Shown here piece after piece: positions 6,704 to 55,688 of a DNA stretch of 57,864 nt. The translations under genes were made by a program, and so were the position numbers. Position 1 is the stretch's first letter, and every line of letters starts with the position of its first letter. The DNA is taken from positions 1-57,864 of the forward strand of contig DATKYK010000009.1 in the NCBI GenBank assembly GCA_035528575.1, written 5' to 3'. This DNA is from Dehalococcoidia bacterium (GTDB lineage: Bacteria; Chloroflexota; Dehalococcoidia; E44-bin15). The notes beneath the pieces are model-generated. The model did not search any database. It saw only the letters and a list, made by a program, of their open reading frames with translations, and was not told where the DNA came from.

Positions 6704-6725
6704 CGATGATGTCACCTGTGTTTGT

Positions 6726-17297: not shown

Positions 17298-17468
17298 ATT
17301 TCTTTTCGTCCTTTACGTTTGCGATATTATAATTCTGATGTTTTCACTTTCACATCATGTTTTTCGAAACGTTTGAAATGTTCGAAGCAGTCTTCACTCG
17401 ATTCACTTGTCCAACCTTGAATAAAATAGAATTGGTTGCGGTAATTTGGCCCTTTTTATTTGGCGGTC

Positions 17469-18758
17469 TTAAATAATGTCGCAATTCATTAGATCCTCAT
17501 AGCTCTCACGGCGGCGGATGAGGCGCGCCCTTCCATCATTGACCATAACGATGGCTGGCCTCAGCGCGGCATTGTAATTTGAGGCCATGGGGAGGCAGTA
17601 GGCCCCGCAGCAGGGCACGGCAATGACGTCCCCGGGCGCGAGTTTGGGCAGGTCGATGTCCTTAATCAGGATGTCCCCCGATTGGCAGAGCTTGCCCGCC
17701 ACGGTGACTTTTTCGCTCTTTTCACCCACTACTTTGTTTGCCACTATTGCTTCGTATTTGGCTCCGTAGAGTGCGGGGCGGATGTTATCGGCGATGCCCC
17801 CATCCACGGAGACATATTTGCGAACTCCAGGAATCTCCTTTATCGCCCCTACGGTATAGAGGGCAACCCCCGCCGGACCGACTATAGACCTCCCTGGCTC
17901 AACGATAAGCCGTGGTGGCTCAAGGACAAGCGCCTCGCTCTTTTCAAGAAGCGTGGATGCGGTCGCCTCGGCAAGTTCGCCGATGGTGGGGGCCGGGGAG
18001 TCTTCCGTATAGGTGATTGCCAGCCCTCCCCCAATGCTTAGCTCTTTGAGCTTGAAGCTATGTTTGCGGCTCATCTCAGCGGCAAAATCCAGCACAATAC
18101 CGATTGCCTGCTTATAGGGCGCAAGCTCGAATATCTGGGAGCCGATGTGGAAGTGCATCCCGATAAGCTCGAGAGAAGACATCGCCGAGGTGAGCGCCTC
18201 CTCAACCTTGTCCAGGGGGAAGCCAAACTTGCTATCGATAATCCCGGTGGTTAAGTGGGCGTGGGTGTGAGGGTCAACGCCGGGGGAGAGGCGCAGGAGT
18301 ATCTCTTGCCGCGATCCAGCATTCTTTGCTACCTCGTTGAGCAGGGAAAGCTCATAAAGATTGTCCACCACAATGCGTCCCACTCCCCACCTTATTGCCA
18401 GCTCCAACTCCTGACGCGATTTGTTATTGCCGTTAAAGTAGACTCGCTCCATGGGGAAGCCAACCGATTCGGCGATGGCAAGTTCCCCTGCGGAGACAAC
18501 CTCGAGCCCCAGTCGCTCTTCATTGAAGAGTTGCGCCAGTGCACGGTTGATGAAGGCTTTACACGCGTATATCACCAGGCTATTGGGATAACGCTGCGAA
18601 AACCCCTCTCGATACTCGGTACACTTCCCCCTCAGCGTCGCTTCGTCAAAGACATAGAGCGGCGTGCCGAATTCACCGGCCAGTGTCCCGGCCGTGCATC
18701 CGCCAATTACGAGGTGGTTTTTTTGTACCTGAGTGGTTTGTGGAAATAGCCTAAGCAT
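17469..18758 (-). CDS. lysA: Diaminopimelate decarboxylase
   Basis: This 429-residue PLP enzyme converts meso-diaminopimelate to lysine. Visible are the PLP-lysine segment VIYACKAF, HFHIGSQI, the glycine-rich phosphate loop LSIGGGLAITY, EPGRSIVGPAG, and the active-site CQSGD and CCGAYC of the second subunit contact. Length is normal. CAGGAGGCAGAT before the ATG sets the start. It overlaps the 3' end of the upstream MBL-fold gene by eight bases, so they form one operon. The 170 bp before holB hold nothing recognisable. Confidence 0.93.
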   Translation of the reverse strand: MLRLFPQTTQVQKNHLVIGGCTAGTLAGEFGTPLYVFDEATLRGKCTEYREGFSQRYPNSLVIYACKAFINRALAQLFNEERLGLEVVSAGELAIAESVGFPMERVYFNGNNKSRQELELAIRWGVGRIVVDNLYELSLLNEVAKNAGSRQEILLRLSPGVDPHTHAHLTTGIIDSKFGFPLDKVEEALTSAMSSLELIGMHFHIGSQIFELAPYKQAIGIVLDFAAEMSRKHSFKLKELSIGGGLAITYTEDSPAPTIGELAEATASTLLEKSEALVLEPPRLIVEPGRSIVGPAGVALYTVGAIKEIPGVRKYVSVDGGIADNIRPALYGAKYEAIVANKVVGEKSEKVTVAGKLCQSGDILIKDIDLPKLAPGDVIAVPCCGAYCLPMASNYNAALRPAIVMVNDGRARLIRRRESYEDLMNCDII

Positions 18759-19581
18759 ATCTGCCTCCTGGGGAGGCTAGTTTATAGCTGACTTCCTCCC
18801 CTATTCCTTGAGAGCAAGCCTTTCCCTCCCTCTCCAGCTTTATAAGGTGGGCGTATACCTGCCCTTTGGCTAGTTCGTAGAGGAAGCCAGCTAGCTCGGG
18901 ATAGATCTCAGCTACCAATTGCTTTACTGTATTATCACCCTGGCGTAACACGGCGATTACCTGATACTCGCGCTCTTTTCGATGCTCGATCAACTCATCC
19001 AGCTTTCGCTGCGGTTCCCTTATAAGTGGACCATGTCCGGGGCAGATCAGATCAATATCATAGTCAAGGAGCTTCCTCAAAGAATCGATATACTGTGCCA
19101 TGTCCCCTTTGGGTGGATGTATCGCCGTGGTGCCAAGGCCCAGAATATGGTCGCCGGAAAATAGTATCTTATCTTTTCTTATATAGAGGCAGATGTGTCC
19201 CGGGTTGTGCCCTGGGGTATGTACCACCTCAAGATCGATGCCTTTAAGCGAGATGATGTCTCCATCAGCTACCACGTGATCCACTGTGATACCGGTTTGC
19301 TCAGTGGAGTGAAGGACAATCTTAGCCCCCGTTTTTTCACGCAGCCTGGCTGCCCCGCCTATATGGTCGAGATGGGCATGAGTGATAACGATATAGGCTA
19401 GCCTAAGTCCGGCGAAATTGTTAACATAATCTATGCGACAACTGACTGACCCCTCATCACCATATCCTGAGTCGATAAGTACACCCTCATCTGCGATCAC
19501 AAGATAGACCTGGGGCGCAAAATGACCTAGAAGGCGATCTGTCCCCGCTGGAATGGCGTGAATGCCCGTGGCAATCTGCAT
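18751..19581 (-). CDS. MBL-fold metallo-hydrolase (LACTB2-like)
   Basis: This 276-residue protein contains the two-metal motif THAHLDH with further ligands in HTPGHNPGH, FSGDHILG and CPGHGP. A C-terminal winged-helix-like segment follows (EREYQVIAVLRQGDNTVKQL and on). This layout fits the LACTB2/GloB-like hydrolase group; some members are endoribonucleases, others thioesterases. It leads the lysA operon and lies divergent from the M16 peptidase gene. The substrate cannot be read from the sequence. Confidence 0.85.
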   Translation of the reverse strand: MQIATGIHAIPAGTDRLLGHFAPQVYLVIADEGVLIDSGYGDEGSVSCRIDYVNNFAGLRLAYIVITHAHLDHIGGAARLREKTGAKIVLHSTEQTGITVDHVVADGDIISLKGIDLEVVHTPGHNPGHICLYIRKDKILFSGDHILGLGTTAIHPPKGDMAQYIDSLRKLLDYDIDLICPGHGPLIREPQRKLDELIEHRKEREYQVIAVLRQGDNTVKQLVAEIYPELAGFLYELAKGQVYAHLIKLEREGKACSQGIGEEVSYKLASPGGRYA

Positions 19582-37482: not shown

Positions 37483-38434
37483 TTGCATGTAGCTAAACTG
37501 CTTAACAAAACCAGTGTTTCCGAATTAGCGGAGTTAAGCAATTTAAGCAAACCATATATCAGCCAAGTTAAGCACGGCAAAAGGCCACCTTCACAGAAAC
37601 TACTGGATGCTCTAGTTGAGCATTCAAAACCTCAAATAGACTACCTCAACCTCTTTATTCTATCACGTAAGGCAATGGGTGTAAGCCCTCGTACTGTTGA
37701 ATTCTATATAGACAGGCTGTATAAGTATGCTGCTAATGTCGATTACCTTGCAGCGACTCCCCAAAAAATACAACGATACTTAAATTCAATACCCGCAAAC
37801 AACAATGGATTTGCCACGAGACATGCTTCATTTCGTGCCATTAAGACCTTCCATCGCTGGCTTAAGGCTGAGTATGGTCTGAACAATCCTATGCTCAATA
37901 TTTTAGCTCCTATACTCGGTAGACCGGTACTTCCAAGCTTAACCGCAGAGCAGGTACTGATTATTGTGGAAAAAGCGCACTGTTCAAGAGACAAAGCCAT
38001 TCTGTCGCTATTTGCTGAAAGTGGTTTAAGGCTAGCCGAATTAGCGAATATTAAACCACAAGAAATAAGTTGGGATAATAAGAACAGTAGAAGTTTTAGG
38101 AAAGGGCAGGAAGGCAGGATTTGCCCCCTTTGGAGAGCTATCTGAAAGATACTTAAAAGAATGGCTCTCTCAGTATCAACCTAATGGCAATATCTGGGAT
38201 TTGAATAAATGGGGCATAATCTCAATGTTAAAGAGGTTAGAAAAGGAAACAGGCTTGCCCTGTAACCCTTACACATTCCGCCGAACCTTTGCTTGCCTAC
38301 TGCGTAAGGCAGGGGTTGACACAATGACCATCAAAGACCTGGGCAGATGGGAATCATTAGAGATGGTACAGCGATACACTAGGTCGGTTACATTTGAGGA
38401 TAGCTTGCGGTTTTATAAACCGCCGTTGGGGTGA
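37483..38434 (+). pseudogene. Tyrosine recombinase (integrase), single +1 frameshift
   Basis: The first frame (TTG at 37483 to 38145) has an HTH-like start (SELSKPYIS-type: LSNLSKPYISQVKHGKRPP), a SAM-like core-binding domain and the catalytic Arg in ESGLRLAELANI. After the codon for Asn-Lys near 38083 the family sequence continues in the +1 frame (TVEVLGKGRKAGFAPFGE, with the catalytic Lys), through TFRRTFACLLRKAG to GRWESLEMVQRYTRS with the nucleophile Tyr, ending at 38434. One extra A explains the shift. The His of the HxxR box is Tyr here (YTFR), and the second His/Trp is Arg (GRW). It is inactive unless recoded or a sequencing error. Confidence 0.85.
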
Positions 38435-38560
38435 AAGGCTGAAATTCGTTGCGGAAGCATTTTTGCTATAATGGCATCAGGAATACCTAGTAAAGCGAAT
38501 ATAGCTTGAATAGCGAGTCAGCTTATAATGCTATTCAACTTAGGAAGTCGACCAATGCTG

Positions 38561-39007
38561 CTACAATCGGCCAGAAGCACTTGGTTGCCTTCTTATCAAA
38601 TGCCATTGCCTTTTCATACGCTGCGTCTGCTTCACTAGATAGCTCTTCCTTGCCTCCTTCTTTTGGGTCTTTCTGGCTTCCTTATCAGCAGCCACAGCTT
38701 CACCGAACCATGCGTCTGCTTCACTGATAAACGCATTCATATCCATTTCTGCCTCTCTGGTTTGCACTAAGTTATTAAACTTGACAAAACGGACTATTTT
38801 CTCATTAGCTATGTATTCTGTGGCTTTAGCGATTGAGCCAGTTGTCTCCATATCCGTCACTAATTCCAAAGCGTAATGAGTATCCATGTTATGCCTCAAG
38901 AGTAGATGTTCATACAGGGTTTGTCTATCATTTGAGTTACTTGAGCAATAGGGGCATATCCAGATTGTTTTTTGCCCAGGTGTGGGTTTCATCTTACTTC
39001 TCTGCAT
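38561..39007 (-). CDS. Small protein with C2H2-type zinc finger
   Basis: This 148-residue protein has near its N-terminus CPYC, twelve residues, then HLLLRH: C-x2-C-x12-H-x4-H, a C2H2 zinc finger. The middle is helical (ALELVTDMETTGSIAKATEY) and the C-terminus is Lys/Arg-rich and charged (EARKTQKKEARKS). I do not recognise the family. It lies between the frameshifted integrase and the second integrase remnant, opposite to both. It could be a cargo or regulatory gene of the integrated element. Confidence 0.5.
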   Translation of the reverse strand: MQRSKMKPTPGQKTIWICPYCSSNSNDRQTLYEHLLLRHNMDTHYALELVTDMETTGSIAKATEYIANEKIVRFVKFNNLVQTREAEMDMNAFISEADAWFGEAVAADKEARKTQKKEARKSYLVKQTQRMKRQWHLIRRQPSASGRL

Positions 39008-39255
39008 TTACTAAAATCCTCTCTGTTGAAAAATTGAGTATGTGTTTTGCCCGTATGTGATTGTGGCTACCTGCAGGAAGTGCCTGGCAAAAGGCTCGCA
39101 TATAGACTAACACAAGATTCGCCATTTGTCTGTCGGGAAAGTATGTATCTTTTGTGGGGAAAGTATGTATTTTTATTTGTGGGGAAAACCCTGACAAAAA
39201 TGTGGTTTATTGTAGGGAGGCTTTGACACAGGTCAATACCGCAGTGCGGGCTTAC

Positions 39256-39348
39256 GGCAGATGGGAATCATTAGAGATGGTACAAAGATATACCAGATCG
39301 GTTACTTTTCAGGATAGCCTGAAGTTTTATAAGGCGCCGTTGGGGTGA
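39256..39348 (+). pseudogene. C-terminal fragment of a second integrase
   Basis: About 30 codons (GRWESLEMVQRYTRSVTF to FYKAPLG, stop at 39348) match the last 30 residues of the integrase at 37483-38434 with three differences. The DNA is clearly homologous but not identical, so it comes from a related element, not a recent duplication. No upstream part remains. It sits about 190 bp before the tRNA-like sequence. Confidence 0.85.
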
Positions 39349-41326: not shown

Positions 41327-42106
41327 CTATTTTTGCCCATGCACATCTTCAGGGAAATCGAGTATTTCACTGAGTAAGTCGCTCACGTTGTCAACGAGTG
41401 TGTCGGCCTCAGTTTTAGGTAAGCTTAAAAACAGGTGGCCGGTGTGGATGATCTTATTTCGCATTTCAGAGAGTTCACTTAGGCCCAAAAGGCGCGGCCG
41501 CAGTTTCCTCTTCTCTATGGCCTGAACTGCTTCTTCGAGGGTGGTTCGCAACTCCCCAAAAGAGACATTAGGCTTGATGGATATGCCAAGCTGCTCAAGC
41601 TTCATCTTCATAGCCGCTTCGATGAGGGTGAGTGCTACTACACTTCTGACCCACTGTGCATTGATTCCCGTAGTAGCGAAGCGGCATAAGAGGTCATTCA
41701 GATCGTGGCTTCCCTCTTGTAGCTTCTCCTGCTCGGAGATTTTACTAAATAGGGTTTCAACCTGAGCATTGAGGGCCGAAATGTTCTCCTTCAGCCGTAC
41801 GTTATCAACCGAAGCAGCGCGCGTTTCTTCTTGAGACTGTTCCAGTCTATTCCGAAGCGAAGACTGAATCTCGATCCACGCTTTGGTTGGGACCCTATTG
41901 AGCCCCTTCTCCGAAGCGGTGTTTTCTGTTTCCAAGACGCCATTTACTACAAGTTCCTTTCGTGCACGACTAAACTCGCTGTAGGATACATGGTATCGGT
42001 TTAGTAGTTCTTTTTGGGTCCAATGCCCAACGACGTATAACAGCACAGCTTGTTCGGCTGGCGAAAGGTCTGAAAAGCTGTCGACCAAACTCAACTTAGC
42101 CCCCAA
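41327..42106 (-). CDS. Hypothetical protein: HTH, coiled coil, HEPN-like C-terminus
   Basis: This 259-residue protein starts with a winged or simple HTH (LSPAEQAVLLYVV, TQKELLNRYHVSYSEFSRARKEL). A coiled coil follows (SSLRNRLEQSQEETRA, RLKENISALNAQVETLFSKI), then a helical domain with EMRNKIIHTGHLF, an R-x4-H motif typical of HEPN domains. I do not recognise a named family. It is convergent with the preceding hypothetical gene, which also has an R-x6-H motif. A stress or defence role is possible but is inference. Confidence 0.6.
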   Translation of the reverse strand: MGAKLSLVDSFSDLSPAEQAVLLYVVGHWTQKELLNRYHVSYSEFSRARKELVVNGVLETENTASEKGLNRVPTKAWIEIQSSLRNRLEQSQEETRAASVDNVRLKENISALNAQVETLFSKISEQEKLQEGSHDLNDLLCRFATTGINAQWVRSVVALTLIEAAMKMKLEQLGISIKPNVSFGELRTTLEEAVQAIEKRKLRPRLLGLSELSEMRNKIIHTGHLFLSLPKTEADTLVDNVSDLLSEILDFPEDVHGQK

Positions 42107-42500: not shown

Positions 42501-43148
42501 ATGGAGCCTTCATGTGGCGACCCTAAATTTCCCATTTGGCTTGTTGCCGATTCGCCACCAAAGAAGTGGCATGAACAGCTTCTTGCACCCTTGGATCCAA
42601 GGCATCCCGCCCGTCATAATATCTGGACACCTATACTTGAATATACGCAGGAATCTTTGTACAGGAAAAAGAAGCGCAGGTTTGACACGGCGAGGTTGTA
42701 TATCAGAAACGCAGTCACAAACCCTGATAATAAACCAGATGATAGGAGCTGTGATTGGACAGAGGTGCCACAAGTGAAAGCGGAAATGGATAAACTTCAG
42801 ACCAAGATTGAGCATTTCAAACCTAAGATCGTTTTAACGTTTGGAGCATTTGCTTTTGAATTCCTCTAGAGAACTGAGGGTAAGGAGCCTTTACGCCGTT
42901 TCTCATACTGGGGAGCGAAATTACTGGGGGATGAGTTCAGAAAAAGTACAAAGTCCTACGATCCGTCGGCAGTAAATATCATTCCGCTACTCCATGTGAG
43001 TATATCTAGAGGAAAGTTTCTGGAGAGCCACAGATACTTTGTCAGTGAGGAGGGGGAAGAACCAGTCAACTACTTCGAGTATGTCGGCAAAATATTAGCG
43101 GATCTATTCCTATGCGAACTTGACCAAGCTCCTATCTGGGTAAAATAG
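42501..43148 (+). pseudogene. Uracil-DNA-glycosylase-like gene with one in-frame TAG
   Basis: One frame encodes 122 residues to a TAG at 42867-42869, then continues in the same frame for 92 more to a TAG at 43146-43148. The parts belong together: FPIWLVADSPPKKWHEQL, DPRHPARHNIWTPIL and KPKIVLTFGAFAFEFL lie before the stop, and NIIPLLHVSISRGKFLES after. These resemble the uracil-DNA-glycosylase-like fold (N-terminal strand and the late His-containing motif). A single nonsense change inactivates it, unless UAG is read through. AGGAGGG before the ATG is intact, suggesting recent loss. Confidence 0.6.
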
Positions 43149-43342: not shown

Positions 43343-44359
43343 ATGGAACCGCAACTGAACCTTGAAGACGAGTTCTACTTCCAGTGGCATATCACGGAGC
43401 GGTGCAACAAACACTGTCGCCATTGCTATCAGAACAGTCATCCGACACAGGAATTACCCCTTGCCGATCTCGAATTGGTCCTTCGTCGGATGGATGAAGC
43501 ACTTCTGAAATGGGAGAAGCAAGGGTCTCTCTCGCTTACAGGGGGGGAGCCGTTCGTTCGTCATGATGAGCTCTTCGCTCTGATGGATCGAGTTGACTAC
43601 CTAGACAGTTTTGCCTACTATGATGTCCTTACTAATGGCTCCCTAATCTCAGATGACTTTGCGCATGCACTGAAGAACCAGAAAAAGCTGCGGCGGGTAC
43701 AGGTTTCTTTAGAAGGGTCAAAACCTGCAATTAATGATGCCATCAGAGGCAAAGGAAGTTACGAGGAAACCTTGCAGTCCATTCGCCGTTTAAAGGATTG
43801 CGGTCTCGCAGTCAGCGTCATGACCACTATTAGCCACCTCAACTACAAAGACATACCCGCTCTTATCGCGTTGTTGGATGACGAGGGTGTAGACACTTTT
43901 TCCTTGGAGCGACTGATACCTGAAGGTAGAGGTGAAGGGCTTCGGGATCAGCTTCTCTCCACCCAAGAACTCAAGTCGCTTTATGAGAGGGTTCATGAAA
44001 TGGCAGTGAACGGGACTAAGGTCCGAGTGCTTATGTACAGGCCGCTGTTTACTCTTGTAGCTCCCGATGACCCCACTGTAGGTGCCCTATGCTCAGCCGG
44101 TAATAATGCTTTGACTATTATGCCAGATGGGACCGTCTACCCTTGTCGCCGCCTACCCATTCCTATCGGCAATGTTTTAAAAGACGGCCTCTTCGCCATC
44201 TGGTATGATTCAGACGTTCTCTGGAAAATCCGCAACCCGCAAGACTTGGGGGGCAAGTGTCGAGATTGTAACCTCCTAACAACTTGCAGAGGTTGCCGAG
44301 CTATGGCCTTTTCTACTACCGGTAACTATATGGCGGAGGATCCTCAATGCTGGCGTTAA
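43343..44359 (+). CDS. Radical SAM/SPASM peptide-maturase
   Basis: This 338-residue radical SAM enzyme has the cluster motif C21-N-K-H-C25-R-H-C28 (CxxxCxxC) in TERCNKHCRHCYQ, the SAM-binding SLTGGEPF near residue 65 and LTNGSLIS. A C-terminal SPASM domain carries clustered cysteines (LCSAGNN, VYPCRR, CRDCNLLTTCRGC and a final PQC). SPASM proteins hold extra [4Fe-4S] clusters and mostly modify ribosomal peptides (PqqE, MftC, sactipeptide and ranthipeptide synthases). The PqqD-like gene overlaps its end by 13 bp and a short Cys-rich peptide gene follows, so that peptide is the expected substrate. Confidence 0.9.
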   Translation: MEPQLNLEDEFYFQWHITERCNKHCRHCYQNSHPTQELPLADLELVLRRMDEALLKWEKQGSLSLTGGEPFVRHDELFALMDRVDYLDSFAYYDVLTNGSLISDDFAHALKNQKKLRRVQVSLEGSKPAINDAIRGKGSYEETLQSIRRLKDCGLAVSVMTTISHLNYKDIPALIALLDDEGVDTFSLERLIPEGRGEGLRDQLLSTQELKSLYERVHEMAVNGTKVRVLMYRPLFTLVAPDDPTVGALCSAGNNALTIMPDGTVYPCRRLPIPIGNVLKDGLFAIWYDSDVLWKIRNPQDLGGKCRDCNLLTTCRGCRAMAFSTTGNYMAEDPQCWR

Positions 44360-44661
44360 AACCTGGAGTTGTATTAGTCTTGGAGCCCAATATAGTGCTG
44401 CGTTCAATACCAGATCAGGACTGGTTCTTTGCTTTCAACGTAGTTACAGGCGATGAGTTCCGCCTTAATAGTACATCCTTTTGGATCCTAGAAGCTTTAG
44501 GGAATGGTGCTGAGTGGATTGAGTTGAAAGGAAGTTTTTTAGAGGCCTTTGAAGTAGTTCCAGAGCAAGGAGAGAGGGATCTTCGAGAACTTGTTAATGA
44601 CTTATTTGAAGAAAAACTTATCGGGAGGCGAAGCAATGGAGAAGAAAAAAATGAAATATGA
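44347..44661 (+). CDS. PqqD-like RiPP recognition element protein
   Basis: This is a 104-residue PqqD-family protein. FNVVTGDEFRLNSTSFWILE is the beta-hairpin and helix signature, and the C-terminal helix RELVNDLFEEKLIG closes the wing. Free-standing PqqD proteins bind the leader of a precursor peptide and hand it to the radical SAM enzyme. It overlaps both neighbours: the SAM gene by 13 bp and the peptide gene by 26 bp. The three are thus translationally linked. The family assignment is firm; the binding to this peptide is inference. Confidence 0.85.
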   Translation: MLALKPGVVLVLEPNIVLRSIPDQDWFFAFNVVTGDEFRLNSTSFWILEALGNGAEWIELKGSFLEAFEVVPEQGERDLRELVNDLFEEKLIGRRSNGEEKNEI

Positions 44662-44773
44662 GCGCCCTGTGCTGAGCAAAGAGAAGAAGATGAATTTCCC
44701 TATTCGCATTATTGAGGCTTCTGGTAAGAGCGTAATTTGTAAGCAATGCTCTTCGTGCCACGCTTGCCGTTAG
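44636..44773 (+). CDS. Cys-rich RiPP precursor peptide (45 aa)
   Basis: This 45-residue peptide starts at ATG 44636 after GGGAGGCGAAGCA. The N-terminal part is basic and contains K-Y8-E-R-P11-V-L13, the YxxPxL pattern recognised by RRE domains in lasso-peptide leaders. The C-terminus is CKQCSSCHACR, with Cys at 35, 38, 41 and 44 (C-x2-C-x2-C-x2-C). There is no acidic residue after residue 28, so a lasso isopeptide ring is unlikely. Thioether links by the radical SAM enzyme, or metal binding, are more plausible. The leader/core border is unknown. An upstream in-frame ATG at 44591 lies inside the PqqD gene and is unlikely. Confidence 0.8.
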   Translation: MEKKKMKYERPVLSKEKKMNFPIRIIEASGKSVICKQCSSCHACR

Positions 44774-44869
44774 ACTTATTAAACAGTGCATTTCGTCTTT
44801 AAATGCTTCTGATGTTCGCCTAAGTAGCCTTGATTGGTCTTGTCAGTCACCATATGTTAGGGAGATGTC

Positions 44870-47800
44870 ATGAATCAAGCCGATTTCGAGAAGCTAGAAA
44901 CACTCAACGCGCAGATCGACGTATGGATCGACGAAGAAGAGTATAGAGTGATCCAAGACTGTCTGCCTCTCTCAAAAAAAGCGGAACAGCAGATTGAATC
45001 ATGCTTTGGGCCTACTCGCTGTACTAAGTGGAAAGAACGACGTTGGTCAGATGCTCTTAATTGGGAGGAATATGCCTTTCCTATCGAAACAGTCATATGG
45101 CCAGAGAAATCGCAAAAGAATCTCAACTTGAAACCTATTGAGAGTTACTGGTCTCACTTATTCTATGCCAAGCGAATTCGCGCTATGATCCAAGAGAGAG
45201 GTACTGATTGCTACTTTCGCCGTCTGGATGATGTAGTGGCATATCTTGAGAAACACCTTCCGCCTCCACCCCTGGCTAATGCAAAGAAGGCGCAAAGAAT
45301 CCAAACAAACAAGTTAGCAGTAATCTATCTCCTTGAGCTTTCCGCTGCAGCAGAAGAACTAGAACAACTAGGTTTTGCCCAACGCGCACACCGATTAATT
45401 AAAAACAAACGCATTGAGTTTGGACGCGAATTCAGTCATTTCTACGATCTATTAGCAAGGTACAATATTGGGATTTCCTATTTTCACAACTCTCGTTATC
45501 GCAATGCTGTTCTGGAGTTTAATAAAATCATCTATGATTTGGATATGCTCCATAGTCTCTATAAAAACGAAATCGAGTTCTTTAGTAATCGTTGCTATAC
45601 TAAACTATTATATTTACCTGCTGTCCTCTATCGGGCTGATATTCAGCTGAAAATACAGCTAGCATATCATTCGCTTGATACCTTGCATATCTACCGTAAA
45701 AAGTTTGACGATGCCGATAAAGAATATAAGAAGATGAAGCGTGATCTTATTAAAGCTGAGGCCTATCAGCAGATGGCACGGTTAGATAAGAGTTCGCAAT
45801 GCCTTAGTGAGACGTGTAAAAAGCTTTTCTCCATAAGATTTTGCCGTGACAATTGTTTCCCCTATGAGCTTGAGGCAAGGAAAACAGACGTCTGTGTACC
45901 CAAAGTTGAAAATGGTGAATATCGTCAGAATATTAAAGGGCGCTTTTTGAGTATACTCATGCAACATCATCTTGTCTACTTAAGTGAGATCATCGGTCCT
46001 CTGGTTGAGCAGACCGAAAAGGCCCCAGATTGGATTAGCAGAAATTTGCCTTATTTAAGGAGGTTAGGTACAGCCTTTAGACGACAATATTTCAGGTCTG
46101 TTGAATACCAAAGTCCTAATCGTATAGGCTATTACGAACAGTTAGCTGAGTACCTAGCGTGGATAACCAAGATAAGTGAGACCAAGTCTGTTAAGGGAGA
46201 TAGTCACACGACACATGAACTGCAGAAAATAAACTCGAAGTTATACCAACAGAGGAAGTTAGGCATATTAGAGAACGAAGAAAAACGTAATGAAGTGATT
46301 GAAGCGGGTAGCTGTCCTCAATGCAAACTCAAAGGAATTGACCTCATGCGGATAAATCCTGATCACTTTAATCAGTTCAGCGATCGAATGCTAGTTTTTT
46401 ACGAAAAACAGTTTAAAGGTGATAGAGATATATTTACTAAGCGTTTAATCAAGTTGGAGAATAACCGCGATAATCTGAGAATAAATGACCTTGAGCTACG
46501 CTATCAAACCGAGCAGGTAGTCAATTCACTAAATTCAAATTATTCAAACCAATATATATGTTGGGATGGAATATTAGATAGAAGTGCTTTCATTGGACTC
46601 CTGAAATGCGCAAGGGTGAATAGTGATGGTGACAAACATGTTTATCTCTTAGAGGATCATTACGAGAAAGTTATTAAACAATGGAATAGGTTATTCCTCC
46701 GCCACCTCGATAGACGAAGTATCCACCAAGCTGGTGGCAATGGGCTTTATTTCGCTGGCCTTCGTAGATGGAACTCTTCATCGCCAGCCAAAGGACGTTC
46801 CGTAGGAGGAGGCTATCTGATATATCATGCTAATAAAACTGGTCAAGTGGACCTTGGAATAGCAATTGATCCTGGCTTCGACTTCGTGAGAAATTTATTC
46901 CATATGGGCTTTAGCTTAAGAGATATTGACATAGTCCTTATAAGCCATGCCGATCTTGATCATATTCGGGATTTTGAGTCTATAATCAATCTCCTCTTCG
47001 AACTCTCAAAGCGGGGTAAATATACAAGGCGCATTCATGTTATCCTCACACTAGGAGTATATAAGAGACTAGAACATATAATAGAGAACCCGACCTACCG
47101 TCACTTTCTTGAGCCTTACATCATTGATATTAATAAAGAGATCTCCCCTGATTATTTTGAAAATCTTCATAAAGGACCAAAATTTTGTTTTGAGCATGTC
47201 CCTCCTGAAAAAAAAGAAGGCAAGGATAAGAAGACTTCTACAGAGGTGTTGGATGCTGATCCTCAGCTTATGGATTATCGAGCTATATTGCCGTCAGAAC
47301 CGGGGAAGAGGCCAAATAAAGATGAATATCCCAGAGTCGAGATAATACCTACAAGGGCCTATCACAATGATCACAGTGGTTATTCCGATAGCTTTGGGTT
47401 TTTAGTTAAAATAAAGCTTCCTACAGAAGATGAAACGATAGTTACATTTGGTTATACAGGGGATACTAAATGGATTTATGGCGAAATTGATGATCCTATC
47501 TCAGAAGAACGTATAAAGCAGGGCGATCAAGAGCGAGTGATCAGCGATATCGCTACTCAATATGTCTCAGTCGATAACGCGAATTCTAGGTGCAATGTCA
47601 TTTTGATGCACCTCGGTTCGCTTATTGATGAAGGAATGTCTTTCGCTAAGTATGATCAATGTGATGAAGATCCTGAGAAGGAAGAAGCATGTGAAAATCT
47701 AGTTCGTAAAAACCGGCATCCTTATTTAATTGGCGTATTAAGGCTTCTGTCCACGCTTCTTCGATTATATGACAAGGCTCCCCAGCCGAAAGTTGATGAG

Positions 47801-48178
47801 CCTCTGATACTTATCGGCGAGTTTGGGGAAGAGCTACGGGGAGGTCTTCGGAGGGACCTTATCAAACGGCTAAGAGAATTGTACGAGGGTAAGTTTTCAC
47901 TCTTACCTATAGATGTCGGAATAACTATCCGTCTCTGGAGTCCGTCAAAGGAAAAAGGTGAAGTTGAAGAAGCTGAGAGTGAAAGTCATTCTTATAGGGT
48001 ATGGTGTGTTCAGTGCGATGAATTTGTACCTATAAATGAATCTGAATTCGATCGTTATGGAGAAGATGAAGCCCTTTTCTGTATATGTAAAACGTGCAAA
48101 GAAGCTACATCACACGATGTCATTCAAGAGCGACTTCGCCATCTCTATGAGGTTGGCTGTGAACTAAAGACTGCTTAG
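44870..48178 (+). CDS. 1102-residue protein with MBL-fold hydrolase domain
   Basis: This is a very large protein. Residues 1-600 are mostly helical with TPR-like character (YNIGISYFHNSRYRNAVLEF) and a GSCPQCK pair near 482. Around 650-920 is a metallo-beta-lactamase domain: IDPGFDF, then H693-A-D695-L-D697-H698 (HxDxDH), H832 in YHNDHSGY, D865 in YTGDTKW and H914 in LMHLGS, a complete metal set. The end has a zinc ribbon (WCVQC, CICKTC). No signal peptide is present. It starts 96 bp after the peptide gene. PqqB, also MBL-fold, acts on the PQQ peptide; a hydrolase or oxidase role here is inference. Confidence 0.75.
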   Translation: MNQADFEKLETLNAQIDVWIDEEEYRVIQDCLPLSKKAEQQIESCFGPTRCTKWKERRWSDALNWEEYAFPIETVIWPEKSQKNLNLKPIESYWSHLFYAKRIRAMIQERGTDCYFRRLDDVVAYLEKHLPPPPLANAKKAQRIQTNKLAVIYLLELSAAAEELEQLGFAQRAHRLIKNKRIEFGREFSHFYDLLARYNIGISYFHNSRYRNAVLEFNKIIYDLDMLHSLYKNEIEFFSNRCYTKLLYLPAVLYRADIQLKIQLAYHSLDTLHIYRKKFDDADKEYKKMKRDLIKAEAYQQMARLDKSSQCLSETCKKLFSIRFCRDNCFPYELEARKTDVCVPKVENGEYRQNIKGRFLSILMQHHLVYLSEIIGPLVEQTEKAPDWISRNLPYLRRLGTAFRRQYFRSVEYQSPNRIGYYEQLAEYLAWITKISETKSVKGDSHTTHELQKINSKLYQQRKLGILENEEKRNEVIEAGSCPQCKLKGIDLMRINPDHFNQFSDRMLVFYEKQFKGDRDIFTKRLIKLENNRDNLRINDLELRYQTEQVVNSLNSNYSNQYICWDGILDRSAFIGLLKCARVNSDGDKHVYLLEDHYEKVIKQWNRLFLRHLDRRSIHQAGGNGLYFAGLRRWNSSSPAKGRSVGGGYLIYHANKTGQVDLGIAIDPGFDFVRNLFHMGFSLRDIDIVLISHADLDHIRDFESIINLLFELSKRGKYTRRIHVILTLGVYKRLEHIIENPTYRHFLEPYIIDINKEISPDYFENLHKGPKFCFEHVPPEKKEGKDKKTSTEVLDADPQLMDYRAILPSEPGKRPNKDEYPRVEIIPTRAYHNDHSGYSDSFGFLVKIKLPTEDETIVTFGYTGDTKWIYGEIDDPISEERIKQGDQERVISDIATQYVSVDNANSRCNVILMHLGSLIDEGMSFAKYDQCDEDPEKEEACENLVRKNRHPYLIGVLRLLSTLLRLYDKAPQPKVDEPLILIGEFGEELRGGLRRDLIKRLRELYEGKFSLLPIDVGITIRLWSPSKEKGEVEEAESESHSYRVWCVQCDEFVPINESEFDRYGEDEALFCICKTCKEATSHDVIQERLRHLYEVGCELKTA

Positions 48179-48191
48179 GAGTTATCAACAA

Positions 48192-49019
48192 GTGAATCAA
48201 GCAGTATCTATACATGAGATGACTAACCTTACGATTATTAGATTGGCTTGTTTTATACATGAAGCACTAGATAGCCGGTTGGAGGCCATCCGCCTGGCGC
48301 GGGCTGGCTGGGCATTGTTGGCCAGCGGCTGCTCTGCCAGTTCTACTTTCCCTGGCCACACCCTGGCCTCATACTTGATAGATGCCCAGCGTGAAGATGG
48401 AGGATGGGCCGATGTTGAGGAAACATTGTGGTGCTTAGGATTTGTGTCTTTCTATGGTGGGGATTACTCTACACAACTAGAGCGTGGAAAGCAGTGGCTT
48501 GATTCTGTGCAGAAGCCCTGTGGGGCATGGGGAAAGACGGAGCGCGATCAGCCGCGAATCCCGGTCACCGGGTTGGTTATTGCTGTTTTGCCAGAGGTAG
48601 TAGAACTAGAGGCACTGGATTGGTTGGCTGACGAGTGGAAACACGACCTTGACTCTAGTGTGCAGCTCACGTACAAGGGAGCCTTCTTTTTGCTCGCCCA
48701 GATGCATCCCCAGGCCCCCACTAAGAATGACTTGGTGGAGCGCACCATCGCTTTACTGTGCAGTGAGCAAGGGGACGACGGTGGCTTTGGCCCCTGGAAG
48801 GGGCATCCGGTGGGGAGCGATCCCTGGAGTACGGGTGTGGCCCTCTGGGGGTTATCAGGATTCGCATCACGGGTTCCAGCTCAGACATTCGAACGAGGGA
48901 TGTCTTGGCTTCAGTCACGACAACTCGACAATGGGATGTGGCCCTATCACTACCTGGACGAAGGTACGGCGATGGCCCTAATTGGGGCAGCTAGTGCCCT
49001 TCGCTCTATGAAGGAATAG
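48192..49019 (+). CDS. Alpha/alpha-toroid protein (prenyltransferase/squalene-cyclase-like repeats)
   Basis: This 275-residue protein has repeats of the kind seen in squalene-hopene cyclases and prenyltransferase beta subunits: AQREDGGWAD, SVQKPCGAWGK, SEQGDDGGFGPW and SRQLDNGMWPYHY, each followed by a helix with an S/T-G-A-L pattern (WSTGVALWGL; EGTAMALIGA). The catalytic DxDD of cyclases is not visible and length is under half of a cyclase. It may be a binding or non-terpene enzyme module. GTG start with GGAG upstream; only 13 bp after the MBL gene and 6 bp before asnB. Confidence 0.75.
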   Translation: MNQAVSIHEMTNLTIIRLACFIHEALDSRLEAIRLARAGWALLASGCSASSTFPGHTLASYLIDAQREDGGWADVEETLWCLGFVSFYGGDYSTQLERGKQWLDSVQKPCGAWGKTERDQPRIPVTGLVIAVLPEVVELEALDWLADEWKHDLDSSVQLTYKGAFFLLAQMHPQAPTKNDLVERTIALLCSEQGDDGGFGPWKGHPVGSDPWSTGVALWGLSGFASRVPAQTFERGMSWLQSRQLDNGMWPYHYLDEGTAMALIGAASALRSMKE

Positions 49020-49025
49020 TAATCT

Positions 49026-50717
49026 ATGTGTGGAATCGTGGGCATATGGGATCAGCCAGATGAGGCAACAGTGGTCAAAATGGCCCAAGCTGTGGCTCAC
49101 CGCGGACCAGACGGTCTGGACTGCATGACAAATGATAATAGCAGTCTGGGGGCATCCCGTCTGGCCATTGTTGGCGATCCAGTTGCCCCGGCTGTGTTTT
49201 ACGACATAGAAACAAACGTCGCTGTTCTCCTTAATGGCGAGATCTATAACGTCGACGCCCTGCGAACGCAATTGGCAGTGAATGGCACTATTTTCCATAC
49301 GAACTTGGAATCTGAGGTTGTAGCCAAGCTATATGTCCACCATGGACTCGGCTTCGCGGAGCGTCTTAAGGGAATGTTCGCGGTGGTCATCTTGGATGGC
49401 GATCGGTTGCTCTTGACCCGCGACAGATTTGGCATTAAGCCCCTGTATTACGCAGACTTAGGGGAAAAGATAGTCTTTGGGTCTGAAATCAAAGCTCTTT
49501 TGGCACACCCAAGCATTTCTCCTCAGTTAAACATCGCAGCCCTCCAGGAGTCCATGGTCTTTGGATACGTATACTCTGCTGACAAGACTTTGTTTGAAGG
49601 GATTCAGCAGGTCGAACCAGGCACCGTCGTTAATTTTGGTGAAGGCAAACGATCAGTTCAGAAATTCGGGGAATTGCCCCAGGCGCGGTACCAGGATGAG
49701 GGAGAACACCCCGAGTACCAGACTGCGATTGCCCAGTTGAGAGAGCATCTTATTGAAACAATGGACTTGCTCCTGCGTCATGGTGACCACCCCATGGGTA
49801 TCTATCTTTCAGGAGGGTTGGATTCAACAATCTTGACCCTGGTTGCGCGGGCCATACTTGATCGTCCCGTCACGACCTTTACCTTAGCTGACAATAATAC
49901 TAATCCAGACTTTTTAGCAGCTAGAGAGGTAGCCCAGAGACTTGGCACCCAGCATGTCGAACGGGTAGTAGGTCTTCATGACTATTTCTCAAGACTTGAA
50001 CACTTTACGACTCACTACGAGGGCCTATTAGCGGGAGGAGTGTTCGACTTGCAGGGGGCGCCTGCCTTCCACCTCATATCTGAAACTGTATCTCAACACG
50101 TTCGAGTTGCTTTCTCAGGAGAGGGTGCCGACGAGCTATTTGGCGGTTACTACTGGATCTATACTCATCCCTTGGGGTTCTCAGACCGCATTAGAAATCG
50201 CATGAATTCAATGCCGGTTGGCGATGGAGTGCGTCAAATGGTAGAGGAGCTTTTCTCCTCGCCCGAGGACGAGAGAATATACCGTCGCAATCTCTTTGAC
50301 GCCTTGATGAGAAGTGGCTTGTCGAACTGCCATTTGCAAAGCGTAGACAGATCATCTGGGGCTTTTGGCTTCGAGATTCGTCCTGCATACCTATTCGACG
50401 ACTTGGCAGATTTTGCTTTGCGACTGCCTATTGAGTACAAGGTGCCTGACAAACGGATAACCAAACGAATTCTGAGGGATGCCTTCCGTCCCGAGTTGGA
50501 GCAACTAGGTTTGGAGTGGGTTCTGGTGCGCCGGAAGATGGGCATGCCCACAGCACTGAGCAATATTGCAAAGCCAATTCAAGAAAGAATGGAGAACGCA
50601 GTTAGTGATGTAGCTTTTTCCGATCGTCCTCTTAAGGATTATCTGCATACTAAGACCGACGTGTATCTGTTTGACCTCTTTAATAAGGCTTTCTTATCAG
50701 AGCCAGTAAATGTCTAG
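49026..50717 (+). CDS. Asparagine synthetase (glutamine-hydrolysing) homologue
   Basis: This 563-residue protein has an N-terminal Ntn glutaminase domain with the nucleophile Cys2 (MCGIVGIW), HRGPDG and LNGEIYN. The C-terminal ATP-pyrophosphatase domain has YLSGGLDST near residue 262 and FSGEGADELFGGYYW. All catalytic residues for Gln hydrolysis and adenylation are present. AsnB homologues in RiPP clusters form amide or isopeptide bonds (lasso cyclase), but those often have altered glutaminase halves. Here an amidation reaction with Gln-derived ammonia is at least as likely. Its neighbours are within 8 bp. Confidence 0.88.
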   Translation: MCGIVGIWDQPDEATVVKMAQAVAHRGPDGLDCMTNDNSSLGASRLAIVGDPVAPAVFYDIETNVAVLLNGEIYNVDALRTQLAVNGTIFHTNLESEVVAKLYVHHGLGFAERLKGMFAVVILDGDRLLLTRDRFGIKPLYYADLGEKIVFGSEIKALLAHPSISPQLNIAALQESMVFGYVYSADKTLFEGIQQVEPGTVVNFGEGKRSVQKFGELPQARYQDEGEHPEYQTAIAQLREHLIETMDLLLRHGDHPMGIYLSGGLDSTILTLVARAILDRPVTTFTLADNNTNPDFLAAREVAQRLGTQHVERVVGLHDYFSRLEHFTTHYEGLLAGGVFDLQGAPAFHLISETVSQHVRVAFSGEGADELFGGYYWIYTHPLGFSDRIRNRMNSMPVGDGVRQMVEELFSSPEDERIYRRNLFDALMRSGLSNCHLQSVDRSSGAFGFEIRPAYLFDDLADFALRLPIEYKVPDKRITKRILRDAFRPELEQLGLEWVLVRRKMGMPTALSNIAKPIQERMENAVSDVAFSDRPLKDYLHTKTDVYLFDLFNKAFLSEPVNV

Positions 50718-51843
50718 AACAATTGCTATTCTCAGCAAGTACCCCCCCTTGGAAGGAGGCATTGCTGCTAAAACCTACTGGATAGCCCGCGGATTAGCAG
50801 CTAGAGGTCACGAGGTTCACATTATCACTGATGGGCTCGATGCTGGACGAGAATACCGCATTCAAGGCAACGATGAACCTCCCGAAGTGTTGCCTAACCT
50901 GTGGATACACCGACCCAAAGAGGAGATTCCTTGGCATATACCAGAAGGCGATGAGAACTTCCTGACCTTGCTGGATCTTACAATAAGAATGATTCAAGAG
51001 CACAAAGTGCGAGTTCTGGACACGGGCTACCTCGTGCCCTACGGCATCATAGGTCATATAGCTAAGCGTATCACCGGCATCGTACATGTGCTCCGGCATG
51101 GTGGCTCGGACATAGAGAAGTTCCTCAAAGGGAAGGTTTTAGGGGCAGTGCTCTACGAGACAATAAACTGTGCTGACGTGGTGGTTACTGATGAACGACA
51201 CAAAGATTTGCTGAAGCCAATGAATAAGAATTTGGTTTTGCAACCGCCTTACGTTGTTGATGCTGAAGCGTTTGTTCCAAGAGAGGGTCCGGAGCTCAAA
51301 CAGCGGCTAGCTGTCATAGGCAAGGTCAATTATCATTGGCAGTCTAAGGGTTTGCACCATATTGCTGAGATTATGCATCGACTCACAGGTCAATTCGAGT
51401 GTGTGTTCGTTGGTCAGGGAAAAGGCATGTCTGACCTCCAGAGCACTCTGGGCCAAGAAGTAGTTTCCAATATTATTTGGAAACCGTTTGTACCCCCTTG
51501 GAAAATGCCGCATCTGCTGGATCAGTTAGACGCTCTCTTTTTATTTGAATCAGGTTTGCCACATCCCGTCGTGTCTAATTTAGCAATGGAGGCTATGTGT
51601 TCGGGTGTCGGAATTATAACGGATCGAACAGATTTCGCCGAGACATATGAAGGGCTTGTGGCTATTGGTGATGAACAAGTCCTTGTGGTCCAGCCTGTAA
51701 ATCCATCTTTAGCCGCAGAGGAGATTGTGCGCTGGTTGGATAAGCGAGCCAAGCCAAGACAGTCTGAAGGTCAGCTCGCTACGTACCGCGATTACCTTGC
51801 TGCCACCGAAGCCCTTTATAGCAATATCCTGAGCTGTTATTGA
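50710..51843 (+). CDS. Family 4 glycosyltransferase
   Basis: This 377-residue GT-B enzyme has ILSKYPPLEGGIAAKTYWIA at the N-terminus (acceptor side, GG loop), RGHEVHII, and the donor-side VVSNLAMEAMCSGVGIIT with the conserved Glu in the nucleotide-sugar site. No signal peptide is present; it should be cytoplasmic. It overlaps asnB by eight bases, so it belongs to the same unit. In mycofactocin a glycosyltransferase decorates the peptide product; here the acceptor is unknown. Confidence 0.85.
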   Translation: MSRTIAILSKYPPLEGGIAAKTYWIARGLAARGHEVHIITDGLDAGREYRIQGNDEPPEVLPNLWIHRPKEEIPWHIPEGDENFLTLLDLTIRMIQEHKVRVLDTGYLVPYGIIGHIAKRITGIVHVLRHGGSDIEKFLKGKVLGAVLYETINCADVVVTDERHKDLLKPMNKNLVLQPPYVVDAEAFVPREGPELKQRLAVIGKVNYHWQSKGLHHIAEIMHRLTGQFECVFVGQGKGMSDLQSTLGQEVVSNIIWKPFVPPWKMPHLLDQLDALFLFESGLPHPVVSNLAMEAMCSGVGIITDRTDFAETYEGLVAIGDEQVLVVQPVNPSLAAEEIVRWLDKRAKPRQSEGQLATYRDYLAATEALYSNILSCY

Positions 51844-53051: not shown

Positions 53052-54221
53052 TTAAAGCCCGACAATGCAGACGCTTACTACTGATGCGTAGGGCTCATAG
53101 CCCATGTTATGTGCCAGGCCCAACTTGGGGTCTTTTAGCTGACGTTTATCAGCCCTGCCCTGAAGCTGGAGATAAAGCTCGTAAATCATCCTTATACCGG
53201 AAGCACCTATGGGGTGTCCGAAGCACTTCAGCCCTCCATCGGGTTGCACCGGTAGAGCGCCGTCAAGGTGAAAAGTGCCCGCCTCGATGTCCTGCTTCAC
53301 CTTGCCACGAGGGCTGAACTGGAGATCCTCCATGGCAACAGCCTCGCTTATGGAGAAGCAGTCGTGGACCTCGGCCATGCTAATTTCCTTTCGGGGATCC
53401 TTAATCCCAGCCTCCGCGTAGGCAGCTACGCCGGCACGATAGGTCTCCTCAACATGGGTGTAGTCGTACTCTGATGTCATTCGTCCCGATGTGGGGCCGG
53501 CGCATATCTGAAGTGCCTTTATATATACCGGATCGGGTCGGAACTTCTTTGCTATATCGGCGCGGGCGATGATAGCTGCTGAAGCGCCATCGGAGACGCC
53601 ACAGCAGTCAAAGAGCCCCAGCGGCCAGGCGATAATAGGAGCGTTTAACACCTGCTCCAGGGTTAACTCCCTCCTCAAATGGGCCTTGGGATTGAGTGTG
53701 CCGTTGTGGTGGCTCTTGATCGAGATCTTGGCCAGCATGGTCTTACCCTCTTCGGGGCTCAATCCGTAGCGATTGAAGTACCTGGTGGCCACAATGGCGA
53801 AGACGCCGGGCATGCTTGACTGATAGTGGGTGTTGGTATGATTCTCCATGCCCGGCAGGCCGCTCATGCCCTCATCTTTCAGCTTCTCGAAACCCACAGC
53901 CATACAAATATCGTGAATACCGGCGGCTACAGCATAGGAGGCACCCCTCACCGCCTCATGGCCGGAGCCACAGGCGTTCTCTACCCTGGTAACCGGAAGG
54001 TACTGCAGCTTCAAGGGCTCGCTGACGGAGCGGCCGCCCATTCCACTGAAAAGGGTGCCTACCCACACGGCCTCGATATCCTTTGCCTCGACACCGGCAT
54101 CGGCGTAGGCTTCGCTGACCGCATCCACGATGAGGTCGCTGGGGCCCTTGTCCCACAGCTCGCCAAACTTGGTGCAGCCCATACCTACAATGGCGACTCT
54201 ATCCTTAATGCTACCTGACAT
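53052..54221 (-). CDS. Thiolase family protein (SCP2/archaeal-type acetyl-CoA acyltransferase)
   Basis: This 389-residue thiolase has DRVAIVGMGCTKFGE at the start, the nucleophile Cys in VENACGSGHEAVRGA, the catalytic His in AEVHDCFSI and the second His in KCFGHPIGASG. The C-terminal Cys motif typical of degradative thiolases is changed to NMGYEPYASVVSV. This is the SCP2-like/archaeal group, which in archaea forms a complex with HMG-CoA synthase and a DUF35 protein. It follows the HMGCS/DUF35 gene by 12 bp. Confidence 0.9.
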   Translation of the reverse strand: MSGSIKDRVAIVGMGCTKFGELWDKGPSDLIVDAVSEAYADAGVEAKDIEAVWVGTLFSGMGGRSVSEPLKLQYLPVTRVENACGSGHEAVRGASYAVAAGIHDICMAVGFEKLKDEGMSGLPGMENHTNTHYQSSMPGVFAIVATRYFNRYGLSPEEGKTMLAKISIKSHHNGTLNPKAHLRRELTLEQVLNAPIIAWPLGLFDCCGVSDGASAAIIARADIAKKFRPDPVYIKALQICAGPTSGRMTSEYDYTHVEETYRAGVAAYAEAGIKDPRKEISMAEVHDCFSISEAVAMEDLQFSPRGKVKQDIEAGTFHLDGALPVQPDGGLKCFGHPIGASGIRMIYELYLQLQGRADKRQLKDPKLGLAHNMGYEPYASVVSVCIVGL

Positions 54222-54233
54222 CTCTTGCCTCCT

Positions 54234-55688
54234 TTAACACCTTATAGGCCTGGCCTTCCAGAAATAGTTGGTGATGCCCCGATCGAATTGCATCTTCCTG
54301 AAGGTCATCTCCACCTCAGTACCCACCTCGATCTTTTCCGGGTCGCGATCGGTGAGGTCGAAGAACGCCCTTCCCCCTCCCTCGAAGTCGATCAGCACTA
54401 CCGAGGCGGGTGGATCAGCGACCTGGGCCAGTTGATCATGGGTGAAGCTGAAGATTTTAGCCTTCCTTCCGGCGAAGTTATAGTCCCTAAAATCGTCCTG
54501 CGCCTGACACTTGGCACACACGCGGATGGGTGACGTGCTCATAGCGCCGTTGTCATACTGCGGGGTGCCGCAGCGCCTGCACTTGACGCCCCAGAGTCCC
54601 AGCAGGACCCTCCTCTCCCGCCAGATAGCGGATAGGCGGATGTGCTGCTTTTCGGGCCTCCTCGCCATCTCCAGAGGAACCAGCTCACGCCAGCGCAGAT
54701 AGTCATTATAGTTTTCCAGCATCCGCTTGGACTCTAGATGCTTTCTCATCCCGCGGCGCTCTCCCAGCTTCTCTATGACATCGGTTACCTCCATGAGAAA
54801 TGCGTCGGCGCCATTTCCAAAACCGGCAAAGAGTATCTTATCTCCTGGCTTGGCCTCCTCCAGGGCGCTTACCAGCATCATCGGAGCCATAGCACAGCCG
54901 GTTATACCCACACTCATAAAGAGGCTAAACGGGTCCTGGAGTTGAGAGGGGTCAAAACCCAGGGCTGCTGCCGCACGGCCGTGCCTCCTAACATCGCCAG
55001 AGGGGTCGAAAACGACCTTGGTGAGGTCTTTGGGCGAGAGGCCACACTTACCCATCAAGCCAGATATGGCCTCGGGTAAAACCTTGGAGTAGCCCTCGTC
55101 CAGTACCATGCGGTCTTCCCAGGCGCGCACAAAGGTGTCGCTCTCAGAACGCCAGGTCCCCGCCAGCTCATCCGATATGGAATAGCTCTCCTTAATCTCG
55201 GCAATGACATTATCCCTGCCCAGAAGAAGGGCAGCGGCGCCATCGCCCAGGCCCTGCTCCAGCATGCCGCCCGGGGCTGCCATGCGGCTATCAGCCGCGG
55301 TTACCAGGATGCTATTTGCCGTACCGGCTTTAATGGTATCCAGGGCCAGGGACATAGCGGTTGTCCCCGAGCGTAGCGAGGTGGTTATATCAGCAGTGCG
55401 TATATCCCGACGCAGATCGAGGGGCAAGGCCATTAAGGCCGAGCATTGCTTCTCCTTATAGGGAGAGGTGGTAGTGGCAAAGTAGAGGCCATCTACGTTA
55501 TGTGGGTCTATATCTTTCAGGCAGTCTATGGCTGCCTCTACCGACATGGTCAGGCTATCCTCATCATAGCAAGCGACCGCCTTCTCTCCGGGCATGGCAA
55601 AGCCCCCCCAGGCTTTAAGGAAATTCTGCCGGTCTATCCGGTGCCAGGGTATGTAGGCACCATATGATGTTATCCCTATCATTGTCAC
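54234..55688 (-). CDS. HMG-CoA-synthase-like domain fused to DUF35 (zinc ribbon + OB fold)
   Basis: This 484-residue protein. Residues 1-310 match the archaeal-type HMG-CoA synthase/KAS III fold (DGLYFATTTSPY; ADITTSLRSGTTAM; GFGNGADAFLMEV). By alignment to known motifs the catalytic Cys is Leu105, the Glu is Thr near 73, and the His is probably Asp228, so condensation chemistry seems lost. Residues about 375-484 are DUF35: a zinc ribbon (CRRC and CAKC) and an OB fold. In archaea the DUF35 protein channels acetoacetyl-CoA from thiolase to the synthase. Here it may act as a scaffold or acyl-CoA carrier for the thiolase. GGAGGTGACA precedes the ATG. Confidence 0.82.
   Translation of the reverse strand: MTMIGITSYGAYIPWHRIDRQNFLKAWGGFAMPGEKAVACYDEDSLTMSVEAAIDCLKDIDPHNVDGLYFATTTSPYKEKQCSALMALPLDLRRDIRTADITTSLRSGTTAMSLALDTIKAGTANSILVTAADSRMAAPGGMLEQGLGDGAAALLLGRDNVIAEIKESYSISDELAGTWRSESDTFVRAWEDRMVLDEGYSKVLPEAISGLMGKCGLSPKDLTKVVFDPSGDVRRHGRAAAALGFDPSQLQDPFSLFMSVGITGCAMAPMMLVSALEEAKPGDKILFAGFGNGADAFLMEVTDVIEKLGERRGMRKHLESKRMLENYNDYLRWRELVPLEMARRPEKQHIRLSAIWRERRVLLGLWGVKCRRCGTPQYDNGAMSTSPIRVCAKCQAQDDFRDYNFAGRKAKIFSFTHDQLAQVADPPASVVLIDFEGGGRAFFDLTDRDPEKIEVGTEVEMTFRKMQFDRGITNYFWKARPIRC

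Follow-up and report, generated by a model that had tools for sequence, protein, structure and literature searches.

The sactipeptide and ranthipeptide systems (SkfB and CteB/PapB types) are among the closest described systems to the locus analysed here, sharing with it the maturase family, the nearest solved structures, a short precursor with a YxxP leader and a C-terminal Cys core, and a discrete PqqD-type protein. Lasso peptide systems also have a PqqD-like protein, a YxxP leader and an AsnB homologue, and the mycofactocin and PQQ pathways have a PqqD-like protein and a radical SAM enzyme, with a glycosyltransferase or an MBL protein present there too. RiPPs have further been associated with phages. 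In the passages considered of a review covering intracellular anti-phage lanthipeptides in Streptomyces (PMC12360287) and of an ocean study of RiPP-phage co-expression (PMC11118758), RiPP clusters lie close to defence genes or are expressed together with those of phages, but there is no mention of phages that carry a radical SAM precursor by itself to match a bacterial cassette. Here we compare these systems with a bacterial locus whose precursor peptide also occurs alone in phages.

The window, the whole stretch of DNA that was analysed, comprises 57,864 nucleotides of a Dehalococcoidia contig (DATKYK010000009.1). All seven ORFs annotated on the + strand at 43343-51843 were found at their positions and their spacing, recomputed from 5' to 3' as -13, -26, +96, +13, +6 and -8 bases, was identical to the overlaps of 13, 26 and 8 bp and gaps of 96, 13 and 6 bp listed in the initial annotation. 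That annotation had read the first three genes as a RiPP core of maturase, recognition protein and short peptide, and the Radical_SAM/SPASM and PqqD matches and the conservation of the Cys peptide bore this out. The first gene (43343..44359, +) encodes a radical SAM/SPASM peptide maturase of 338 aa (Radical_SAM PF04055 1.4e-23, SPASM PF13186 3.6e-10) with the CxxxCxxC radical SAM/SPASM signature expected of a RiPP pathway, seen in the cluster motif CNKHCRHC, and seven Cys in the SPASM region. Its closest solved structures were SkfB, 5wgg and AnSME, and the first two of these are Cys-thioether maturases. By sequence it is also related to cofactor maturases, as seen with the heme b synthase, NirJ and MftC models of NCBIfam. 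Adjoining the maturase, as would be expected of a RiPP recognition element, is a 104 aa protein of the PqqD family and fold (44347..44661, +; PF05402 2.3e-05).

The third gene (44636..44773, +) encodes the precursor peptide MEKKKMKYERPVLSKEKKMNFPIRIIEASGKSVICKQCSSCHACR, which is conserved in two other bacterial genomes, L004 and L006, and in at least 17 virus contigs. The preferred start is the ATG at 44636, giving 45 aa, as a GGGAGG (GGAGG-type) ribosome site lies just upstream; the TTG at 44591 was rejected in its favour. The L004 and L006 peptides are about 60% identical to that of the window and lie at the same cassette position, which places the window peptide far beyond chance. The peptide is laid out as a YxxP...MxFP leader followed by the C-terminal core CKQCSSCH(G/A)C(R/K), with CKQCSSCH invariant across the three bacterial peptides, and such a conserved short precursor with leader and core is again what a radical SAM RiPP pathway would contain. 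Judged from sequence, the cassette peptide is a conserved RiPP precursor. Among 400 Chloroflexota genomes the peptide was found in the window itself only, and INPHARED phages and PLSDB plasmids gave weak, incidental matches only.

To find related cassettes about 85,000 species genomes were scanned with the maturase using an exact 8-residue word, so that more distant cassettes would escape the scan. Two syntenic relatives were recovered, one in another Dehalococcoidia MAG (L004) and one in a Hainich groundwater bacterium from a phylum with eight genomes (L006). The gene order is conserved in all three cassettes: radical SAM/SPASM maturase, PqqD protein, peptide, a slot gene, toroid protein, AsnB and GT4 glycosyltransferase. 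The six genes that we call constant are constant across these three cassettes, at least three being in existence. Conserved gene order and conserved peptide cysteines in other genomes, which the initial annotation had proposed to look for, were thus found in L004 and L006. The maturase is 60% identical to that of L004 and 56-67% to that of L006, and the PqqD protein, at the same cassette position, 48% and 36-38%. In L006 the maturase frame is split by a frameshift near a G run at about 10557-10600, which may be genuine or an artefact of assembly. In the DNA examined for the maturase relatives L003, L005 and L007 (33-35% identity) the peptide was absent, as were the other genes of the cassette, and a scan for the peptide in 199 genomes belonging to the same phylum as L005, made without a positive control, gave no further match. 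The initial annotation had taken maturase and peptide homologues occurring without the other four genes as evidence against a single pathway; maturase relatives without the cassette do exist but lack the peptide as well, and the peptide does occur without the enzymes, in phages. The toroid gene was present in 2 of 343 Dehalococcoidia genomes, that of the window and, judging by coordinates, that of L004. The cassette is therefore sporadic in Dehalococcoidia, yet also found in another phylum. Integrase remnants neighbour it in the window, type I restriction genes in L006, and NYN, DUF3800, weak N6-methylase matches and a terminase in L004. The phage-like terminase genes of L004 lie directly behind GT4 on the opposite strand (16945-19158; PHROG 5909, 7.5e-07).

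The fourth gene of the cassette was the variable one. In the window it encodes an 1102-aa protein (44870..48178, +) with an MBL-fold domain at residues 664-738 (Lactamase_B_2 PF12706 2.7e-07), HADLDH and TGDT motifs and a Cys-rich C-terminal region. No relatives of this protein were found in the 400 Chloroflexota genomes, plasmids, phages or IMG/VR. Between the peptide and the toroid gene L004 and L006 instead carry a protein of 567-583 aa. Identity between these two proteins is 31%, and neither could be linked to the MBL protein by sequence. They show H...HD motifs (RDHFLH, TYHDYNY) and had no Pfam match, and the label HD-like is provisional because it comes from motif reading. No HD-like protein was found in IMG/VR. 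Predicted structures were too poor for fold reading, both for the HD-like protein (2 sequences, pLDDT 34) and for the last 522 residues of the MBL protein (pLDDT 37). In the window (0.407) and in L006 (0.318) no other cassette gene has a GC as low as that of the slot gene, and in L004 (0.422) it ranks second-lowest, after PqqD. An AT-rich gene swapped in this way has the look of an exchangeable module, and the slot draws attention to hydrolase-like proteins, so far unstudied, that might act as effectors.

The remaining three genes were kept in both relatives. The toroid gene (48192..49019, +) encodes a single-domain alpha/alpha-toroid protein of 275 aa (SQHop_cyclase 2.1e-07) related to squalene-hopene cyclase and thioester-domain toroids, 49% identical to its counterpart in L004 and 40% to that in L006; it was not found in IMG/VR. 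AsnB (49026..50717, +) is a glutamine-dependent amidotransferase of the asparagine synthetase type with an N-terminal Cys2 (Asn_synthase 9.2e-46 plus GATase), 59% and 50% identical to the L004 and L006 proteins, and its best solved relative is the hydroxyamidotransferase 7ylz. The last gene (50710..51843, +) encodes a GT4-family glycosyltransferase of 377 aa (PF13579 6.4e-09) with 50% identity to L004 and 40% to L006. Pairs of AsnB and GT4 genes occur in polysaccharide loci too.

Compared with the described systems the cassette differed in each case. To the sactipeptide and ranthipeptide plan it adds AsnB, GT4, the toroid protein and a swappable slot, its core is different, and its precursor also occurs alone in phages. 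The best full-length NCBIfam match of the maturase was the ACGX model TIGR04340, at 200.6 bits against a cut-off of 400, and the cassette peptide has no ACGX repeats. The SynChlorMet models likewise scored below their cut-offs (ScmD 27.2 against 100, ScmE 119.5 against 400, ScmF 93.4 against 400). Several links drawn in the initial annotation did not survive this comparison. AsnB had been linked to the lasso cyclase, a role rejected by its NF033535 score of 116.7 bits against 525, while it exceeded the cut-off of TIGR01536 (312 bits against 267); in contrast to lasso systems the cassette has a true glutamine-dependent synthetase with Cys2, no B2 protease among its seven genes, and a core without an Asp/Glu ring acceptor. 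The link to mycofactocin failed at the MftC model (TIGR03962, 137.8 bits against 265), and the PqqE model of PQQ scored 91.9 against 381 (TIGR02109); the peptide differs from those of both pathways, and the MBL protein is neither constant nor PqqB. A PqqB role had been suggested for this protein and was dropped, as neither Pfam nor NCBIfam gave a PqqB family match. The giant MBL protein had also been counted as a member of the pathway, and the finding of an unrelated protein in the slot of L004 and L006 left this claim unsupported. Of the proposal that all seven genes form one pathway, the part covering toroid, AsnB and GT4 stood and the part covering MBL did not, and a fixed seven-gene pathway was rejected, the MBL gene being replaced in both relatives and the two slot proteins having no sequence link. 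The cassette is not PQQ, mycofactocin, lasso or ACGX, and the earlier statement that no described pathway has this set of genes agrees with our finding that the conserved cassette fits no named system. PADLOC gave no match for the HD-like slot protein, toroid, AsnB or GT4; the maturase drew cross-matches to viperin models at the level of the radical SAM superfamily, the MBL protein a single weak one, and no known defence family was recognised in the cassette. In the open-licence literature we found nothing on the core sequence and no prior description of the cassette or of a phage-borne solo precursor.

The same precursor was found alone in at least 17 IMG/VR contigs of uncultivated phages, encoding at least 12 distinct peptides. 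IMG/VR was first scanned with a DNA pattern for CKQC(S/T)(S/T)CH(G/A)C, which gave eight loci where a rough estimate predicts well below one chance match, and all eight were short ORFs with a leader and a stop right behind the core. Additional scans raised the count to 17. From the loosest DNA pattern five leaderless frames overlapping long coding frames were left out (L048, L049, L051, L052 and L053) and L050 was kept, and CKQCSSC stretches that failed tblastn were excluded and taken as chance. One phage peptide, that of L043 (KKYEKPVIVKQTKVTFPIDIIEAYGKGVACKMCSSCHGCR), is strikingly similar to the bacterial peptide of L006. Most copies of the peptide gene lie in clusters of genes for the head or for packaging. 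The terminase and portal genes flank it in L019 and L024, and the portal and protease genes in L020; it comes directly after the portal in L021, L043 and L029, precedes a P22-type portal in L027, and in L036 follows an Asn_synthase domain located behind the terminase. In L022 it sits in a tRNA cluster, between tRNA-Pro and tRNA-Glu (6722-6835), and L026 and L050 have other surroundings. Upstream of the peptide in L026 (2890-5557) is a DNA-polymerase-like gene broken up by segments that resemble inteins and homing endonucleases; in L050, an AT-rich virus contig, the peptide (5326-5469) has the variant core CKQCSGCHSCR and lies near a sigma-factor-like gene. The portals of the peptide-bearing phages belong to at least seven families (PHROGs 10963, 12, 146, 1216 and 156 and the P22 and SU10 types) and, as these families are unrelated, carriage of the peptide was not inherited from a single phage lineage.

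The virus contigs were also searched for the enzymes of the cassette. The eight peptide-bearing virus records that were searched contained no radical SAM gene, nor did the IMG/VR scan yield one, and when the cassette proteins were compared with the fetched virus DNA by tblastn the only match was AsnB in L036. This contig encodes an Asn_synthase domain that stands by itself and lacks the glutaminase part (2799-3446; PF00733 2.8e-16), the only one above cut-off in 13 virus records, and its ORF ends six bases before the start codon of the peptide. Taken with the bacterial cassettes it is an independent association of AsnB chemistry with the peptide, in a single case. Across 11 distinct phage peptides mean identity was 0.90 in the core as compared to 0.58 in the 15-residue leader block. 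Synonymous and non-synonymous codon differences numbered 307 and 59 in the core and 253 and 347 in the leader, counts that are descriptive as the pairs are not independent. The solo phage precursors are under purifying selection, which appears to be strong in the core, suggesting that the phage genes are kept for their protein and above all for the core.

From these data we propose that the locus is a RiPP cassette that moves horizontally and combines six constant genes with an interchangeable slot. Its enzymes would also process precursors supplied by phages, and it would probably be tied to phage-host conflict, a reading that we consider about evenly balanced. The YxxP motif and the gene context suggest that PqqD binds the leader and presents the core to the maturase, which, given the solved relatives SkfB, 5wgg and AnSME, most likely installs Cys thioether bonds in the core. 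AsnB would activate and amidate a carboxylate, most simply that of the C-terminal Arg/Lys, as Asp and Glu are missing from the core. GT4 may glycosylate the peptide, conceivably at the invariant Ser-Ser, and an intermediate might be bound or shaped by the toroid protein. The motifs of the slot proteins (HADLDH and TGDT in the MBL protein, HD-like ones elsewhere) suggest that the slot may hold a swappable metal-dependent hydrolase acting with the product. In infected cells bearing the cassette the host enzymes would process the phage peptide too, as the precursor occurs in the phages by itself and in the company of late genes, and this would divert the pathway or make product for the phage. The shared leader and core, and the lack of a maturase in the phages searched, are consistent with such processing, and the phage hosts would be expected to carry the cassette. 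Cassette mobility, slot exchange and the neighbouring genes fit a role in phage-host conflict without proving it. Together the data suggest that a single peptide product is shared, or contested, between bacteria and their viruses. In its more specific form, to which we give somewhat less than even credence, this would be a split RiPP system in which bacteria own the cassette with its exchangeable effector slot and many phage lineages own orphan precursors that host enzymes process, as decoy or as hijack. If true, it would be a phage-host interaction for which we found no description, and the phage half is potentially a new kind of interaction.

Decoy and hijack were also weighed as explanations in their own right. 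An anti-phage cassette whose PqqD and maturase are tied up by the phage peptide as a competing substrate would account for its sporadic, mobile distribution near restriction and phage-related genes, for the swappable AT-rich slot and for the uptake of the precursor only by many unrelated phages, and anti-phage RiPPs do exist, as reviewed for intracellular lanthipeptides in Streptomyces (PMC12360287). A pure decoy however needs the leader more than the core, and the core is far better conserved; the peptide genes lie among late structural genes, and L036 adds a tailoring-type enzyme, which fits a made product, so that we consider this explanation unlikely. The better conservation of the core than of the leader, and the Asn_synthase of the phage, speak for a product being made rather than for a simple sponge, although a sponge passing through several enzymes would keep the core too. 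That host enzymes turn the phage precursor into a product helping the phage, for example by killing or excluding competitors, is possible but on the unlikely side. The nearly invariant core under strong apparent selection, the Asn_synthase domain adjoining the peptide in L036 and the lack of a maturase in the phage records searched argue for it; against this, the known cassette is rare among sequenced hosts, so a phage could seldom count on it.

Two further explanations were considered. The core could be consumed to build a redox or metal cofactor, as in PQQ and mycofactocin, with the phage precursor as an auxiliary metabolic gene, and both the near-invariant core and the sequence relation of the maturase to the heme b synthase, NirJ and MftC models are consistent with this. 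We consider it improbable, as no cofactor-dependent oxidoreductase was recognised beside the three cassettes, the distribution is rare and patchy, and the PQQ and mycofactocin models fell below cut-off. A low probability is also given to an unmodified phage peptide, which would be a small protein of the head or late set that binds zinc or an iron-sulphur cluster and would have been recruited by bacteria. CxxCxxCxxC resembles cluster-binding motifs and the gene is repeatedly placed beside portal and terminase genes, but the leader keeps YxxP, typical of binding by a recognition protein, the bacterial copy is embedded between PqqD and tailoring genes, and a common structural role is unlikely as the portals belong to unrelated families. 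Under the preferred reading of a mobile cassette whose enzymes also process phage precursors, the near-invariant 11-residue core defines a RiPP family with enzymes ready to express, and a precursor kept repeatedly by unrelated phages offers a rare natural handle on peptide function. A RiPP as a phage-host weapon, borrowed or blocked by the virus, thus becomes directly testable.

The DNA around the window cassette was also examined. GC was 0.40-0.45 at 34-48 kb as compared to 0.51-0.55 over most of the window. Upstream of the cassette, at 37483-39348, an HTH and tyrosine-integrase gene lies in pieces, with the C-terminal end of the integrase (GRWESLEMVQRYTRSVTF...) repeated near 39300; these pieces are a mobile-element remnant. 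A 259-aa protein encoded near the cassette at 41327-42106 (-) has a weak Swt1-like HEPN match (0.027) and is a possible defence gene. Just 5' of the cassette, at 42501-43148, is a uracil-DNA-glycosylase-like gene that is apparently split into separate frames. The cassette is also adjoined by a gene pair at 53052-55688 (-); by eye, one of the two proteins resembles a thiolase and the other, which has a DUF35-type zinc/OB part, an HMG-CoA synthase.
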